Source: a virus | Reading direction: 5' to 3' (one strand) | Length of the DNA: 43,962 bases | IMG/VR virus record: IMGVR_UViG_3300026484_000004 | Coordinates: 1 to 43,962 of that record | In this document: one piece after another, positions 22,762 to 43,962 of the stretch | Position numbering within the stretch: position 1 is the first letter of the stretch | Layout: every line of letters begins with the position of its first letter | Made by a program: the position numbers and the translations under genes | The notes under the pieces: model-generated | The model's input: only the letters and a program-made list of their open reading frames with translations | Database searches by the model: none | What the model was told of the DNA's origin: nothing

Positions 22762-24600
22762 ATGTACAAGACAATAACAGTTGGCGACTTTTTAAGGTTA
22801 GCCAATAAGCACTACACAAAAGACAAGCCCATTTTCTGCGATATAGAAACTGACGGGCTCTACGTAAATACCTCACTTATACAATTCAGACAAGATGGGC
22901 TCTACCATATGGTTACCACTACTTCTGACCAAGCTGTTGAGAAGCTTAAAGAATGGATGGAAGATAAGTGGCTAGTTTGGTGGAATGCGCCTTACGATTT
23001 AGGAACTCTTAATTTTGAGAAAACTCCAAGGACTGATGATTTATGGGTAGCTTTTAAGATAGCTTATCCTTCGCTGCAAGAATTTACTTTGGACAAAGCT
23101 GTATCATACCTTGGCTACAAGGACTTATATGAAGGCTTAGATAAGAAAGCTTTACAAAAGGCAGGGTTTGTAAGAAATGCCTACATGTCTCAAGACCAGC
23201 TCAGATATGCTGCTGCTGATGTTGAGGCACTAGAGAGAATGTGGCAGATTGACAAAATACAAAAGGTTATGCAAGGTAATATGGCATATCGCTTGGCTAT
23301 ATACGCCATAGAAGAGGCTATGGTATGGCAACAGAATGGTATACCAATGCGCCAAGACGTAATAGCTAATTATATGATAGAGACTCAAGACACTATAGAT
23401 AGGCTAGATAATGATTTATTGCATCTAGCTGGTGACGGTTTTAATCCAAGAAGTCCTAAGCAAGTAAAAGAGCTACTAGGTATTGCTTCATCTGATAAGG
23501 CTACGCTAACACGCATCATAATTAATGGTAGTTTAGACTCATCAAAGAAGTCAAGCACAGGTAGAGGAATAGAGCAGAAGGCCGTGCAATTTACTGAGCG
23601 TCAGCAAAAACAAGCAGAAGTAATATTAGCTGCTCGCAAGGCTAAAAATGATATGTCTAAACTAATCAAGTATAATCATCCAATACTATATGGTAGATTT
23701 TCACCGGTGGGAGCAGGCACCTCAAGGTGGTCTTGCAAAGGTAGTAAGCATGTACCAGAATACGACAACTTGCAGAACTACTCAAGACAATTTAAGAGCT
23801 GCTTCGGGTTACCAGATGACAGTGATATGATTATAGTCGCAGCTGACTTTGCTACTCTAGAAATTAGAATAGCTGCCGCTATAATGAATGAGCCTAATAT
23901 GTATGCTGCACTAATGCGTGGAGATGACATACATAAGACCACAGCTTCGCTGGTTTATAATAAGCCTATTGAAGAGGTACATGGTCGTGAAAGAAGTAAT
24001 GCAAAAGTAATGAACTTTGGGCTCACCTATGGTATGGGGCTAAACGTTTTTATTCAGTATGCTTTTGATTTGTACGGAATTAAATTCAGCATAGGAGAGG
24101 CTAAAGACATTATAGCACGTTTCTTTAAAGCCTATCCTGGCTTAAAAGAGTACCATACTATGGTAGGTAATAAGATGCGCAAAGGCTCTTATATTTGTCA
24201 GACAGCTTTAGGCTATAGGATGAAGCCAAAGATGTACGCAGAAGCCATCAATGGCCCCACTCAAGGTACAGGTGGTGAAACCATGCGCTTAGCCATACAT
24301 CTAATGTATAAAAAAGACATTAGTACGTTAAAGTACTTAGTTAATAGTATACATGATGCAGCTTACCTGATAGTTCCCAAAAATGACAAAGACTACTGGA
24401 GTAAGCTCTTACATGATAGCATGCAGGAGGCTTGGTACGAAATTAGAAAGTCTAAGGTATTCTATTTTCACGATATACCTATGCCTGTTGATATTATGAG
24501 TGGTCAGCACATGGGCGATTTAGAAGAAGGTTTTGCTGGTGGCGGTCAAGCTCTGTCAGTTGAAGAAATGCGTGAAACGCAAGCAAGGAATAAGAAATGA
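22762..24600 (+). CDS. Family-A DNA polymerase with 3'-5' exonuclease, T7 gp5-like
   Basis: Replicative polymerase of 612 residues. Proofreading domain: FCDIETDG (Asp27, Glu29), WNAPYDLGTL (Asp79) and LRYAAADVEAL (Tyr149, Asp153). Polymerase domain: motif A VAADFATLEIR (Asp near 362), motif B RSNAKVMNFGLTYG (about 408-421) with Phe at the ddNTP-selectivity position, and motif C NSIHDAAYL with Asp532. Motif C has HDA where nearly all family members have HDE, so the second acidic residue is replaced by Ala533. It is shorter than T7 gp5 (704). It lies after SSB and before the nucleotide-metabolism genes and overlaps the TS-like gene by 4 bp. Confidence 0.92.
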   Translation: MYKTITVGDFLRLANKHYTKDKPIFCDIETDGLYVNTSLIQFRQDGLYHMVTTTSDQAVEKLKEWMEDKWLVWWNAPYDLGTLNFEKTPRTDDLWVAFKIAYPSLQEFTLDKAVSYLGYKDLYEGLDKKALQKAGFVRNAYMSQDQLRYAAADVEALERMWQIDKIQKVMQGNMAYRLAIYAIEEAMVWQQNGIPMRQDVIANYMIETQDTIDRLDNDLLHLAGDGFNPRSPKQVKELLGIASSDKATLTRIIINGSLDSSKKSSTGRGIEQKAVQFTERQQKQAEVILAARKAKNDMSKLIKYNHPILYGRFSPVGAGTSRWSCKGSKHVPEYDNLQNYSRQFKSCFGLPDDSDMIIVAADFATLEIRIAAAIMNEPNMYAALMRGDDIHKTTASLVYNKPIEEVHGRERSNAKVMNFGLTYGMGLNVFIQYAFDLYGIKFSIGEAKDIIARFFKAYPGLKEYHTMVGNKMRKGSYICQTALGYRMKPKMYAEAINGPTQGTGGETMRLAIHLMYKKDISTLKYLVNSIHDAAYLIVPKNDKDYWSKLLHDSMQEAWYEIRKSKVFYFHDIPMPVDIMSGQHMGDLEEGFAGGGQALSVEEMRETQARNKK

Positions 24601-25376
24601 TAAGTAACGCTGAAAGACAATACATGTCTCTGGTACAAGAGATTAAAGAGACTGGTACCTTTAAAAGTCCTACAAAGGGAAGAACCTTATCTGTTTTTCA
24701 TAGGACAATCACTATACTACCTGATGAAGTTCCTCTACTACAAGGTAGAAGGATATATTGGAAGGGAATAGTCGGAGAACTTAAAGCTTTTATGTCAAAT
24801 GAAGACACCGTAAAAGGCTTTGAAAAACATGGTTGTAACTTCTGGGGAGCTTGGGCTAATGAAGACGGCTCGCTTGATGTAGATTATGCTAGACTACTAC
24901 ATAACTTTAATGGAGTTAATCAACTATCAAGACTTATAGGCAGCTTGTCTTTAACTCCACACAGTAGGAAGCATGTTATATCTCTATGGGACCCCAGCTC
25001 TAAAGCACTACAGGTGCCTTGTGTACTTAGCTATCAGTGGTACGTAGAAGGTGCAACCTTACATATGATATGGAACCAGCGCTCAGTAGACGTTATGATA
25101 GGGCTGGCTAGTGACATGTTTAGCGCTTGGCTACTGAACAAACTAGTGGCTAAGGCAGTCGGATTAAAAGCGGGAGTGGTATATATGGACCTAGGAGATT
25201 GCCATATCTATGAAGAGCATTTACGTCTAGTTAAGAGATATATAGACAATGTATGGGATGATGTAGAAATGAAAAAGCCTAGATATCACCTAGACTTTGA
25301 CTCTATCTATGACTTTAATCTAATAGTAAGTGATTACAATCCCATTGAGACTATGAAGTTTGAGCTGAAAATATGA
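24597..25376 (+). CDS. Thymidylate-synthase-family enzyme with dCMP-type active site
   Basis: A 259-residue member of the thymidylate synthase/dCMP hydroxymethylase family. Conserved residues: Arg29 in GRTLSVF, Glu61 in GELKAF, SRK at 123-125 (phosphate arginine), nucleophile Cys142 in VPCVLSYQW, QRSVD at 161-165, and DCHIYEEH with His203 and Tyr205. Aligning ungapped from Cys142, the residue equal to E. coli Asn177 is Asp173 (GLASD instead of GLPFN), and the His after Cys is Val143. Asp at this place marks dCMP-acting enzymes such as T4 dCMP hydroxymethylase, and in studied TS enzymes Asn-to-Asp gives dCMP methylation. Predicted product: 5-methyl- or 5-hydroxymethyl-dCMP. Family is clear; substrate is inferred. 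Confidence 0.8.
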   Translation: MISNAERQYMSLVQEIKETGTFKSPTKGRTLSVFHRTITILPDEVPLLQGRRIYWKGIVGELKAFMSNEDTVKGFEKHGCNFWGAWANEDGSLDVDYARLLHNFNGVNQLSRLIGSLSLTPHSRKHVISLWDPSSKALQVPCVLSYQWYVEGATLHMIWNQRSVDVMIGLASDMFSAWLLNKLVAKAVGLKAGVVYMDLGDCHIYEEHLRLVKRYIDNVWDDVEMKKPRYHLDFDSIYDFNLIVSDYNPIETMKFELKI

Positions 25377-25738
25377 CAGTAGGCTTATTATTATTAACGT
25401 CTAAAGACCAGTACCTTAAAGAAGATGGTAGTCTACCATCTAGGCCTGCTTTTGATAAAGGTCTGCTAGAGGCTCTAATGCATGAAGAGGTGGTATGGTG
25501 TACGCAAACTACCTGGGATAGTATGCCTAATAGAATGAAGCATAACGCATTAGGAAGATGTAAATGGAACTATACTTTAAATCTTGGCATAGGGACGATG
25601 TATACTGAGCCACCTAAGCTTCTGATTATAGTTAGAAGCAAAGAGAATTTTGAGGGAGGTCGCACCTTTGACCTTAATCAATGGAAATTGCTAGTTAAGC
25701 AAAATCAGTTAGATATTTATATCTTAAAAACCTCTTAG
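25373..25738 (+). CDS. Compact DHFR-like protein
   Basis: A 121-residue protein directly after (and overlapping) the TS-family gene. It resembles the N-terminal half of dihydrofolate reductase: strand GLLLLTSKDQYLKEDGSLP (about 4-22), Asp28 at the place of the folate-binding acid, helix, strand VVWCTQ, then TTWDSMP (46-52) matching the HTWES/KTWESLP motif. Later LLIIVRS, GG at 95-96 and LDIYILKT (113-120) fit the GG...DxLYLT segment, after which DHFR normally continues for about 40 residues that are missing here. It could recycle dihydrofolate formed by a methylating TS-like enzyme, or be a degenerate binding protein. Confidence 0.5.
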   Translation: MTVGLLLLTSKDQYLKEDGSLPSRPAFDKGLLEALMHEEVVWCTQTTWDSMPNRMKHNALGRCKWNYTLNLGIGTMYTEPPKLLIIVRSKENFEGGRTFDLNQWKLLVKQNQLDIYILKTS

Positions 25739-25775
25739 AAACAACAGAGATATAGATATAAGAGATTTTATATCC

Positions 25776-25799
25776 ATATCTATATCATTATATAGATAT
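25776..25799. promoter_or_regulatory. 10+4+10 inverted repeat upstream of the HTH gene
   Basis: ATATCTATAT, four bases CATT, then its exact complement ATATAGATAT. It lies about 45 bases before the promoter at 25843-25863. It may be an operator for the HTH protein encoded next, or a weak hairpin ending the previous transcript. Confidence 0.5.
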
Positions 25800-25802
25800 A
25801 GA

Positions 25803-25832
25803 TTATCTGTCCATATAAGAGAGATATGGAGT
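25803..25832. repeat. 30-base intergenic element, copy 2
   Basis: Shares 25 of 30 bases with 11057-11086. In this copy CCATAT and ATATGG form a six-base inverted repeat separated by seven bases. It lies 10 bases upstream of the promoter at 25843. Confidence 0.55.
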
Positions 25833-25842
25833 TAAGAATAAA

Positions 25843-25863
25843 TTAAGATTAATACGATATAAT
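25843..25863 (+). promoter_or_regulatory. Promoter of the HTH/exonuclease/helicase/ligase operon
   Basis: TTAAGA, nine bases ending TACGA, then TATAAT (25858-25863), with TTAAGATTAA matching the operator-like half-site seen at other promoters. The ATG of the HTH gene is 25 bases downstream of the -10 box, with AAAGGAC. Confidence 0.6.
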
Positions 25864-25888
25864 TAAAGTAATTAAATAAAGGACTTAA

Positions 25889-26125
25889 ATGAAGATAGGT
25901 GCATATCTAAGCGCTAAGCTTGATACTGGAGAGTACGAACCTCAGTATAAGCTTGGTATGGAATTAGGGATAGGTAGCGCGCAGCTTAGCCATTATATAA
26001 CGGGAAGAACTGAGCAGCCAGCTTTAGACTTAGCAAAGCGTATTTATGAAGAAGACGGCATAGTAATATGGCCTTATTCTAAAGAAGCAGTAGGAGCGAA
26101 CGGTGAGCAAGTTTATGAAAAATGA
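25889..26125 (+). CDS. Cro/CI-type helix-turn-helix regulator
   Basis: A 78-residue DNA-binding protein. Residues about 20-45 form the HTH: YKLGMELGIGSAQLSHYITG followed by the helix ALDLAKRIYEEDG, typical of Cro/CI-like or YdaS-like proteins. The C-terminus (VIWPYSKEAVG) is a short strand likely used for dimerisation. The gene lies behind two inverted repeats and the shared 30-base element, so autoregulation and control of the TAAGATTA-type promoters are reasonable guesses. It overlaps the next gene by 23 bp. Confidence 0.7.
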   Translation: MKIGAYLSAKLDTGEYEPQYKLGMELGIGSAQLSHYITGRTEQPALDLAKRIYEEDGIVIWPYSKEAVGANGEQVYEK

Positions 26126-26438
26126 TAGTGAGAAAAATAGATTAGAGCTAATAGACCCTGACTTTATTATTGGTATAGGTTCAGTTCTAACATTCGGAGC
26201 CGAGAAGTATGAGGCCAACAATTGGAAGTTAGCTAACTCTAAAGAAGATAGAGAAAGAGTAAGAGGTGGCATGTTAAGACATCTTATGGCATATAGTAGT
26301 GGTGAGCTAGTAGACGCAGAAACTGGGCTAAGCCACCTCTATCACTTATCTTGCGGAGCTATGTTTTTAGCTTACCACGATAGAAATGCAAAAGTGCACA
26401 AAAATCAAGGCACGTTAGGACTTAGCTATGAAGATTGA
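26103..26438 (+). CDS. MazG/DUF5664-like dNTP diphosphohydrolase
   Basis: A 111-residue all-alpha NTP pyrophosphohydrolase-like protein. I use GTG at 26103 because AGGAG lies six bases before it; ATG 26115 is 12 bases downstream. Family pattern: LTFGAEKYEANNWK (about 29-42), a charged helix with RGGMLRHLMAYSSGE (54-68) and DAETGLSHLYHLSCGAMFL (71-89), as in the dATP/dGTP diphosphohydrolase (DUF5664) proteins of phages. The expected reaction is dNTP to dNMP plus pyrophosphate; the base preference cannot be read from sequence. Next to a dCMP-type TS-family enzyme it could supply the monophosphate substrate or remove unmodified nucleotide. Confidence 0.65.
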   Translation: MSKFMKNDSEKNRLELIDPDFIIGIGSVLTFGAEKYEANNWKLANSKEDRERVRGGMLRHLMAYSSGELVDAETGLSHLYHLSCGAMFLAYHDRNAKVHKNQGTLGLSYED

Positions 26439-37414: not shown

Positions 37415-38152
37415 CTACCAATCCACCTTTAATCCGTTTAAAGCAGGTACGCTACCATTAGTTACTTGCGACGTAGGTTTCATTTGACTCACGCCATAGC
37501 CTGCTACCTGTGTAAAGCCACTAGCTGCTTGTCCCCATCCTTGCGCTTGGTTAGAGTGAATACTTGCCATTGTTTGACCGCTGTTTAAAGCCGTATTTGC
37601 CTGTTGATTATATACATTAGATACACCAGCTCCTGCATTATAAGCAAATGATTTATTTTGGTTTAGCTGATTAGAGCCAAAGTTAAGCCACTGCATTTCA
37701 TCATTTTGATATTGATTAACTGCATTCTGTCTATTGGCGCCTAATGTAGCTTCTCTACTAGCCTCTAGCGCTACCCTAGCATTAGTGTTTTGTCCTGAGT
37801 TGAACATACCATTATTGCTAAACACAGCGTCTAATGACTCTTTACTACGCTTATACTGATTTTCTATTGCTTCTTTACCTTGCAATTGGTACATTTCCGG
37901 TGAAATATTTGCATAGTACTCTGCCATATTATCTTGTATAGGACCGAATATATCCTCTAAATCAGCTACATCTTGCATGGCAGACTCATATTGCTCTTTT
38001 TGAAAACCTAGGTTATTTGCATTGGCTAGCGCAGCTTCCGCGCTACCTTGAGCCGCTGCATCTGCTGCTGCTCCTGAAGCTTTATTACTCATGTACATTG
38101 ACCCTGCCGTACCTACTACTCCTACAGCTAAAGCCGCTACTGCTGCTGACAT
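37415..38152 (-). CDS. Injection protein of the P22 gp7/T7 gp14 type
   Basis: A 245-residue protein beginning with an Ala/Gly-rich hydrophobic helix (AAVAALAVGVVGTAGSMYMS, residues 3-22) followed by GAAADAAAQGSAEAALANAN and a Gln/Asn-rich helical body (NQYQNDEMQWLNFGSNQLNQ). This is the usual appearance of small ejection proteins that insert in the outer membrane (T7 gp14, P22 gp7-like). It directly precedes portal in transcription order and overlaps the SET-domain gene by 16 bp. Family assignment rests on composition and context. Confidence 0.65.
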   Translation of the reverse strand: MSAAVAALAVGVVGTAGSMYMSNKASGAAADAAAQGSAEAALANANNLGFQKEQYESAMQDVADLEDIFGPIQDNMAEYYANISPEMYQLQGKEAIENQYKRSKESLDAVFSNNGMFNSGQNTNARVALEASREATLGANRQNAVNQYQNDEMQWLNFGSNQLNQNKSFAYNAGAGVSNVYNQQANTALNSGQTMASIHSNQAQGWGQAASGFTQVAGYGVSQMKPTSQVTNGSVPALNGLKVDW

Positions 38153-38865
38153 TTTATCTCCTTTATCAATGATAGATTTAAGCTATAGTCCACTAATAGC
38201 TCCTCACCTCTTTTTATACTTCTAGTTGTAACTACATTATCAAATCTATCAAATTCTATATTTGCCTTAATAGAATGATTTACATACCTGCCTAGCTCAG
38301 TCCTAATACCATTTAGCGAAGCCTTACCAAGAGTAGCACCTTTTATATAATCCTGATTAACGAATAGGCCTTTGCCGTGCACTTTACTACTAGCTACGGT
38401 AAATATACCTCTATAGGCTTCAGAGTAAGTATCCTTGTTAAAAGCAATTGCATCAGCCTGCTCTAAAGTAATATCATGTTCAGCTAGCATCATAACAAAT
38501 TTATCCTCGTGTAATGTTGTGAACATTCTTTCAATTTCATCTATATCCTTGCTATCAGTAGGTATAATATTATGTACCACACACTCAGTATAGGCCAGAC
38601 CTACTTTTCTGCTTTGGTCAAGTGCTTCAAATGTACAAGGTGCATTAAGCATTTTAGACTCATTACCTATACGTACTTGCATAACACCAGATACCAGCGT
38701 AGTTAAATGATTTGTCTTGTGGGCGGCGCCTAGTACAAGTGTACCGGCTGGTACAATCATTTCACGAACACAGACACCATCACTAAAATAATGATTAGTG
38801 CTAGGCTCAATCAATATGCCTCTACTTATAAGTGACGATACAGAGGCTGATATATCTTTAACCAT
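38137..38865 (-). CDS. Cupin-like plus SET-domain protein (putative protein methyltransferase)
   Basis: A 242-residue two-domain protein. Residues about 36-105 look like a small cupin/beta-helix barrel (MIVPAGTLVLGAAHKTNHL, VSGVMQVRIG, NAPCTFEALDQ). Residues about 150-232 are a SET domain: SSKVHGKGLFVNQDYIKGAT, the core RYVNHS (193-198) and GEELLVDY (220-227), the two motifs that bind S-adenosylmethionine and the substrate lysine. It is encoded inside the virion cluster, between a large tail protein and the injection proteins. Lysine methylation of virion or host proteins is the inferred activity; SET domains without activity are also known. Confidence 0.7.
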   Translation of the reverse strand: MVKDISASVSSLISRGILIEPSTNHYFSDGVCVREMIVPAGTLVLGAAHKTNHLTTLVSGVMQVRIGNESKMLNAPCTFEALDQSRKVGLAYTECVVHNIIPTDSKDIDEIERMFTTLHEDKFVMMLAEHDITLEQADAIAFNKDTYSEAYRGIFTVASSKVHGKGLFVNQDYIKGATLGKASLNGIRTELGRYVNHSIKANIEFDRFDNVVTTRSIKRGEELLVDYSLNLSLIKEIKCQQQ

Positions 38866-43197: not shown

Positions 43198-43962
43198 CTA
43201 AGCTAGTAATCCTTTGTCTACTAATTCGTTGTATCTAAACTCTACTTCTTGTGGAGTCATTGCCTTTTGATGTACTTTGAATAGTCTAAGTGGTGTTGCT
43301 AGTTCACTATCTAAGTCATTAAGTATTTTACCTATAGGGTAGCTTGCGCTATCTGTAGATGTATTAATAATATCAGTGGTGCCTAAGCTACTCCCATCTA
43401 AGTATGTTGTAAAACTATTTTTAGACACAGATACTGCTATATGGTGGAAAAAATCTTGGTTTCGGAGTACACCATAAGCATTAAAATAGTTTGACTCTAT
43501 TGATACACTTAATGAACCACTGGCATAGTTAAATTGGCGTATACAATTTATATTATGTATACCCACACCTTTGTAGTCATAATTACCAATAGCATCATAA
43601 GTTTTTATATACATTATCAATTCTATCGAATACTCTTTACCAATACCTAACTCAGGTACCCATCCAGTATCCACATACCCACTTCCATCACACTCTAATC
43701 TATCAAATGAACTAGCATATGGGACACCTAATACATCTCTTTTCCACTTACTAGTTTGTAAGCCGTATGATAAGTTCTTAGCATCATCTCTTAGAGTTGA
43801 GGTAGGATTTGCGATTGGGTAGGTCGATGTTAGTTTTTTAACGGATATGTTATCTATTTCAACATTATATGTACCAGATGTAGTGGGTGCTATTGTAAAC
43901 CTTGTATTATTTGTTACTGTATTTGTTACTGTGTAGTGTCCGACACTCGATAATACACTACC
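43198..43962 (-). CDS. LamG/CBM-type tail adhesin, C-terminal part (continues from position 1)
   Basis: The rest of the 527-residue adhesin that starts at 946. Bases 43836-43962 duplicate 1-127. Entering from the junction the protein reads LTSTYPIANPTSTLRDDAKN, GLQTSKWKRDVLGVPYASSF, DRLECDGSGYVDTGWVPELG, and then a LamG sandwich ending FKVHQKAMTPQEVEFRYNEL. A GTG at 43674 could be mistaken for a start but lies mid-domain. The first blocks match the 741-residue adhesin closely at protein and DNA level. Role inferred: surface-glycan binding. Confidence 0.85.
   Translation of the reverse strand, partial: GSVLSSVGHYTVTNTVTNNTRFTIAPTTSGTYNVEIDNISVKKLTSTYPIANPTSTLRDDAKNLSYGLQTSKWKRDVLGVPYASSFDRLECDGSGYVDTGWVPELGIGKEYSIELIMYIKTYDAIGNYDYKGVGIHNINCIRQFNYASGSLSVSIESNYFNAYGVLRNQDFFHHIAVSVSKNSFTTYLDGSSLGTTDIINTSTDSASYPIGKILNDLDSELATPLRLFKVHQKAMTPQEVEFRYNELVDKGLLA
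43836..43962. repeat. Terminal direct repeat, right copy
   Basis: Identical to bases 1-127; see left copy. The non-redundant genome is 43,835 bp. Confidence 0.95.

Follow-up and report, generated by a model that had tools for sequence, protein, structure and literature searches.

A phage thymidylate synthase family enzyme of predicted dCMP type and its minimal DHFR-fold partner

To our knowledge, phage Xp12 and its kin are the main example of genome-wide 5-methylcytosine (5mC) that is made at the level of the nucleotide. The genus-mate AXL1 (OL674541) is used here as a proxy for Xp12 (MT664984; Pamexvirus/Bosavirus). In Xp12 DNA, 5mC takes the place of all cytosine (PMC7653180). For T4 deoxycytidine monophosphate (dCMP) hydroxymethylase, Park et al. 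(2019) described a signature relative to thymidylate synthase (TS) that consists of an acidic residue three positions before the catalytic Cys (Cys-3) and Ser or Thr two positions before Tyr (Tyr-2), together with Val in place of Trp83 and a missing C-terminal tail (PMC6400193). The MetaGPA study (2021) found positions 177 and 147 to be the top two TS positions tied to cytosine-modified phage contigs. These contigs carry TS alongside PRA-PH and deaminase domains, and DNA ligase domains show an association as well (PMC8670742). Here we describe a TS-family protein encoded at 24597–25376 of IMG/VR record IMGVR_UViG_3300026484_000004, which appears to belong with these enzymes of cytosine modification. 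The whole record, positions 1 to 43,962 (43,962 bases), was analysed and is referred to as the window.

The protein matches PF00303 (Thymidylat_synt) with 168 bits against a cut-off of 24.3 (E=2.9e-49) and carries the catalytic Cys/Arg/Glu/Asp/His/Tyr set of the TS superfamily, with the exception of Thr26 at the position of Arg21. Alignment to E. coli ThyA pairs Cys142 with C146, Glu61 with E58, Arg162 with R166, Asp165 with D169, His203 with H207 and Tyr205 with Y209, as well as Trp83 with W80 and Tyr97 with Y94. The six catalytic residues agree with the list in the original prediction. Its seventh, Arg29, was rejected as the counterpart of phosphate-binding Arg21, because the aligned residue is Thr26; this position is Arg in 87 of the 92 sequences of the clade described below. 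Ser163 and Arg124 correspond to Ser167 and Arg126 of E. coli TS, which set the specificity for deoxyribose versus ribose (PMC5175136). Both are kept in 92/92 clade sequences, and the pocket is predicted to be that of a deoxyribonucleotide, not a ribonucleotide, enzyme. The score remains below every NCBIfam thymidylate-synthase equivalog cut-off (best 126.8 bits versus 327; 99.2 versus 108.35 for TIGR03284), and no further TS copy was found in the whole record.

At the position of E. coli Asn177 the window protein has Asp173, as originally noted. The residue is invariant among 19 aligned sequences, and Asp occupies position 177 in 89 of 92 clade sequences, far more often than chance would allow. 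The clade set, which includes the window, was collected by searches of IMG/VR and phage records and comprises about 80 non-redundant proteins. Because the search patterns, QRSxDxM[IV]G[LVI] and [GA]D[CT]HIY[EAQ][ES], leave the Asn/Asp position out, the conservation of Asp is not a selection artefact. In a maximum-likelihood tree the clade is set apart by a long branch with SH-aLRT support of 97, and the three members with Asn at position 177 (loci L034, L037 and L055) are scattered within it. The scatter suggests a substrate switch that is able to flip rather than inherited noise, and the Asn members have likely gone back to deoxyuridine monophosphate (dUMP). The long branches of T4 gp42 and AXL1 meet in the tree, and we therefore make no claim on one versus several origins of dCMP specificity. 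Cultured members of the clade are Edwardsiella phage KF-1, Dickeya phage Amaethon, Pseudoalteromonas phage PH1 and Vibrio phage VPMS1. In one further relative (L031, 4089–5789) a 5'-3' exonuclease is fused in frame to the TS-family enzyme, giving a protein of 567 amino acids (aa).

The choice of dCMP over dUMP as substrate is well supported by the clade-conserved Asp177, by published Asn-to-Asp TS mutants that prefer dCMP (as cited in PMC8670742) and by the MetaGPA association, and we consider it very probable that the enzyme is of the dCMP type. A second substitution to which the original prediction had drawn attention, Val143 in place of His147, is real and common to L009, L028 and L029. We rejected it as a cytosine mark in itself, because Val also occupies position 147 in B. 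subtilis-type ThyA, including the SPbeta-like B. subtilis ThyA (SPbL3) and the best-matched ThyA structures.

The features that distinguish T4 dCMP hydroxymethylase were looked for in the window protein and its clade. Instead of Asp or Glu, Cys-3 is Gln139 in the window and Leu in most relatives, and Tyr-2, instead of Ser or Thr, is Val95 in the window and Val, Leu or Ile in 92/92 sequences. Trp83 is retained (Trp86 in the window; 85/92 overall), and the C-terminal tail has the length of the E. coli TS tail, again in 85/92. Because the T4 signature is absent and TS-type features are kept, TS chemistry with hydride transfer on dCMP is favoured, and an enzyme of the dCMP type would probably be a methylase. 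The earlier preference for methylation over hydroxymethylation is thereby supported, mainly by active-site evidence; the accompanying argument that dihydrofolate reductase (DHFR) means methylation is weaker than stated, as the NADPH-binding parts of the DHFR-like protein encoded next to TS look lost.

The surroundings of the TS gene are arranged as follows.

22762–24600, plus strand: family A DNA polymerase with 3'-5' exonuclease (PF00476, E=7.7e-44; PF01612).
24597–25376, plus strand: TS-family enzyme of predicted dCMP type, 259 aa (PF00303, E=2.9e-49; alignments; clade SH-aLRT 97).
25373–25738, plus strand: predicted DHFR-fold protein, 121 aa (AlphaFold, Foldseek, family alignment, position).
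25739–25888, no strand: A+T-rich spacer that separates the DHFR-like gene from the helix-turn-helix (HTH) gene and in which AGATATA-type words recur (sequence read).
25889–26125, plus strand: putative HTH regulator, 78 aa (weak matches to PHROG transcriptional regulators, E=0.009–0.045).
26103–26438, plus strand: PF18909/DUF5664 deoxynucleoside triphosphate (dNTP) pyrophosphohydrolase domain, GTG start as called (PF18909, E=1e-22; PHROG 801).

The polymerase stop overlaps the TS start in the sequence ATGA, and a polymerase gene lies immediately 5' of TS in many relatives. TS and the DHFR-like gene are joined by the same kind of ATGA overlap, both running in the same direction behind the polymerase. 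Homologues of the putative HTH regulator occur in L009, L010, L028, L031, L054 and L078.

The 121-aa protein has no match in Pfam, PHROG or NCBIfam. Profile searches of PDB sequences place DHFRs at the top, with best E values of 0.16 (profile of 3 sequences) and 0.017 (13 sequences). Its AlphaFold model (pLDDT 92, pTM 0.83) gives 138 Foldseek matches in the PDB at E<=0.001, and the 50 listed are all DHFRs (best E=1.4e-5, TMq 0.53–0.68). The protein is thus predicted to have the DHFR fold, and the DHFR likeness first noticed from the sequence alone is borne out by the predicted structure and the profile matches. In an alignment of 13 family members, Asp28 is invariant (13/13) and corresponds by hhalign to the catalytic Asp27 of E. 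coli FolA, while Thr47-Trp48-x-Ser50 aligns with FolA Thr46-Trp47-x-Ser49. In 12 of 13 loci, the window included, TS is followed immediately 3' by this gene; one of the Asn members, L055, still has the gene. In most other relatives the same slot is taken by a MazG-type pyrophosphohydrolase (PPase). The two genes are nearly exclusive of each other (PPase in 1/13 versus 48/67 loci, p=2e-5 by Fisher's exact test, a value that is generous because the contigs are partial and the phages related). This minimal partner with a DHFR fold seems to represent a novel protein family.

From the TS homology and residues, the conserved clade, the coupling of the genes and the predicted DHFR fold we infer a substrate, a product, a pathway and 5mC in the DNA. 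On balance we favour the reading that the product of 24597–25376 acts as a TS-fold C5-methylase of dCMP and feeds the synthesis of 5mC DNA. Cys142 would attack C6 of dCMP, with Asp173 reading the cytosine ring and protonating it at N3. The carbon would come from methylene-tetrahydrofolate. Tetrahydrofolate would then pass on a hydride, in a step sealed off by the TS-like C-terminal tail, to yield 5-methyl-dCMP and dihydrofolate. The co-translated DHFR-fold partner could then handle dihydrofolate, either as a reductase or as a folate-binding partner. Host or unrecognised kinases would convert 5-methyl-dCMP to the triphosphate, which the phage family A polymerase would use so that part or all of the cytosine is 5mC, and the DUF5664 enzyme would adjust the dNTP pool. 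The odds lean slightly towards 5mC in the virion DNA, and the phage probably uses methylated cytosine in its DNA or once did so.

The original prediction also included a DUF5664-like enzyme downstream, and this is confirmed by the matches of the 26103–26438 protein to PF18909 (formerly DUF5664; E=1e-22) and to the dATP/dGTP pyrophosphohydrolases of PHROG 801 (E=3e-28). In relatives the PF18909 domain is encoded beside TS or as part of a fusion with dCMP deaminase; in L064 (6055–7239) a single protein encoded behind the DHFR-like gene unites three parts, a MazG-type PPase, a dCMP deaminase and a PF18909 domain. The model of the domain is all-helical (pLDDT 86), and a fold search of the PDB with it gave no credible match, the MazG-like DR2231 appearing only at E=6. 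The step from dCTP to dCMP in the pathway of the original prediction is unsupported, because the sole tested homologue, the stand-alone DUF5664 enzyme of Arthrobacter phage Wayne, converts dATP, dUTP and dGTP to the monophosphates (PMC12884076). Most relatives have a MazG-type PPase and a dCMP deaminase, but profiles of these proteins from the relatives matched nothing in the window at E<=1.

Several points weigh against a methylase that supplies 5mC to the DNA. The Gln139 of the window at Cys-3 fits neither class, the signature of hydroxymethylases comes from T4-like enzymes (PMC6400193), and MetaGPA is silent on 5mC versus 5-hydroxymethylcytosine (5hmC) for a given contig (PMC8670742). In the DHFR-like protein, FolA Arg44 is replaced by Gln45, and no Gly95-Gly96 is conserved in the family alignment, but the C-terminal half cannot be aligned by profile. 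The NADPH-binding residues are likely lost, and because the dinucleotide-binding residues look lost the role of reductase is doubtful. Among the window proteins neither a dCTPase nor a kinase nor a dCMP deaminase was recognised, the same outcome for kinase and dCTPase as before. The DNA itself contains GATC only twice (sites 1839 and 5717) versus 113 expected, and GAWTC three times (sites 5523, 6152 and 6482) versus 63 in shuffles, or 25 by the Karlin measure. Because both sites are purged, the DNA is apparently not shielded from every restriction enzyme.

All five surviving GATC and GAWTC sites lie inside open reading frames of tail genes at the left end, which suggests recent exchange in these genes. 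GASTC is not avoided (68 versus 56), and sites composed only of G and C are near expectation. Among relatives, GATC is excluded in 25 of 50 loci at z<-3, and GAWTC is also missing from L029, L031, L054 and L091. The purge is compatible with 5mC, because Xp12 DNA can be digested with AhdI, KpnI and MboII, whose partner methylases act on adenine, in the case of MboII partly on N4 of cytosine (PMC7653180). Plain cytosine would fit the purge just as well. The GATC ratio is low both in unmodified T7 (0.05) and in a T4 segment with hydroxymethylcytosine (0.42), and site avoidance was therefore rejected as decisive proof of modification. No literature on the restriction behaviour of KF-1 or VPMS1 was found.

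The persistence of site avoidance would also suit a nucleotide-pool enzyme that leaves the virion cytosine essentially canonical, either by draining dCMP, for instance into 5-methyl-dCMP that is then deaminated, or as a dual dUMP/dCMP enzyme. Deamination of 5-methyl-dCMP yields deoxythymidine monophosphate directly; relatives carry fusions of dCMP deaminase and DUF5664, and neither a kinase for the modified nucleotide nor a dCTPase was recognised in the window. We regard this explanation as unlikely, given the lack of a recognisable deaminase in the window, the preference of the published Asn-to-Asp mutants for dCMP (as cited in PMC8670742) and the statistical enrichment of Asp177 TS genes on physically modified DNA (PMC8670742).

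A little less probable still is a dCMP hydroxymethylase, in which water would add to the methylene intermediate and the DNA would carry 5hmC as in T4, perhaps decorated. Asp177 is common to T4 gp42, and the TS-bearing modified contigs of MetaGPA include a 5hmC carbamoylation system (PMC8670742). However, the acid at Cys-3 and the Ser at Tyr-2 are absent, the TS tail and Trp83 are kept (PMC6400193), no glucosyl- or carbamoyltransferase was recognised among the scanned window proteins, and a DHFR-fold partner would be superfluous. The site purge also speaks against full T4-like shielding, because coliphages with a T4-type hydroxymethylase avoid almost no sites (PMC6286503), although the T4 segment mentioned above is also low in GATC. 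An ordinary dUMP thymidylate synthase in which Asp is tolerated would agree with the overall TS features and with the Val147 and Thr21 found also in B. subtilis-type ThyA, but it is highly improbable in view of Asp in 89/92 sequences across deep divergence, the scores below all NCBIfam equivalog cut-offs and the mutagenesis literature (as cited in PMC8670742).

The first 127 bases of the window recur at its end (1–127 = 43836–43962) as a direct terminal repeat, and because of this the record probably represents the whole genome of a short-tailed phage, either closed into a circle or redundant at its ends. Besides the family A DNA polymerase, its genes include a gp2.5-like single-stranded DNA-binding protein, a Dda-like helicase, a 5'-3' exonuclease, ligase, terminase, portal and capsid. 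Amid the virion genes, 38137–38865 on the minus strand encodes a protein that resembles a short tail fibre adhesin in its N-terminal part and carries a SET domain (PF00856, E=4e-6) at its C-terminus. No relatives at the DNA level were found in the phage collection, and a scan of bacterial genomes gave only a few contigs of metagenome-assembled genomes and distant TS.

These results lead us to propose, tentatively, that a lineage of small podovirus-like phages, kin of Kafunavirus (about 80 members, some cultured and some uncultivated, and this genome), makes 5-methyl-dCMP by a methylase only distantly related to that of Xp12, that one sub-branch carries the 121-aa DHFR-fold protein in the slot of the MazG-type PPase, and that just a few restriction specificities, GATC and GAWTC among them, can still act on the 5mC genomes. 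If true, this would open a second source of natural dCMP methylases, both widespread and cultivable, that could serve in the production of 5mC DNA. Methyl versus hydroxymethyl transfer in the TS fold could then be tested with natural enzymes, including the three Asn clade members.

Compared with known systems, the DUF5664 gene shares with that of Wayne the Pfam domain and the stand-alone form (PMC12884076), whereas Wayne is a Z-DNA phage and the window gene lies near a dCMP-type TS. The DHFR-like protein resembles FolA and the 128-aa annotated DHFR of RHph_I46 in predicted fold, Asp28 and Thr47-Trp48-x-Ser50; it differs in its 121-aa length, in having no family-database match and in that Arg44 and Gly95-Gly96 are unrecognisable. 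The TS-family protein shares catalytic residues and tail length with ThyA of the E. coli and B. subtilis types, and Val147 and Thr21 with the latter, but both types have Asn at position 177 and the window has Asp. With T4 gp42 it shares the TS fold, the Cys nucleophile and the Asp reading cytosine (T4 Asp179, window Asp173), whereas T4 Asp145, Ser94 and Val85 are Gln139, Val95 and Trp86 in the window, and the tail absent from T4 is full. The MetaGPA TS genes, as described in PMC8670742, resemble the window lineage in the changes at 177 and 147 and in the associated gene set; a DHFR partner is not mentioned there. AXL1 differs from the window in its very distant TS sequence (position 147 is Pro, Tyr-2 is Ser), which shows no sister relation to the window clade in the tree (long branches), and in a DHFR of ordinary size (162 aa) that has been tested by expression. 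AXL1, which as a near relative of a 5mC phage lends the methylase reading independent support, has a nucleoside triphosphate PPase, the Asp177 TS, dCMP deaminase and DHFR side by side, whereas no PPase or deaminase is recognised in the window. It has Asp at 177 and no acid at Cys-3, as does the window. The kind of system described here is known; its branch is new, as is the family of its minimal DHFR-fold partner.

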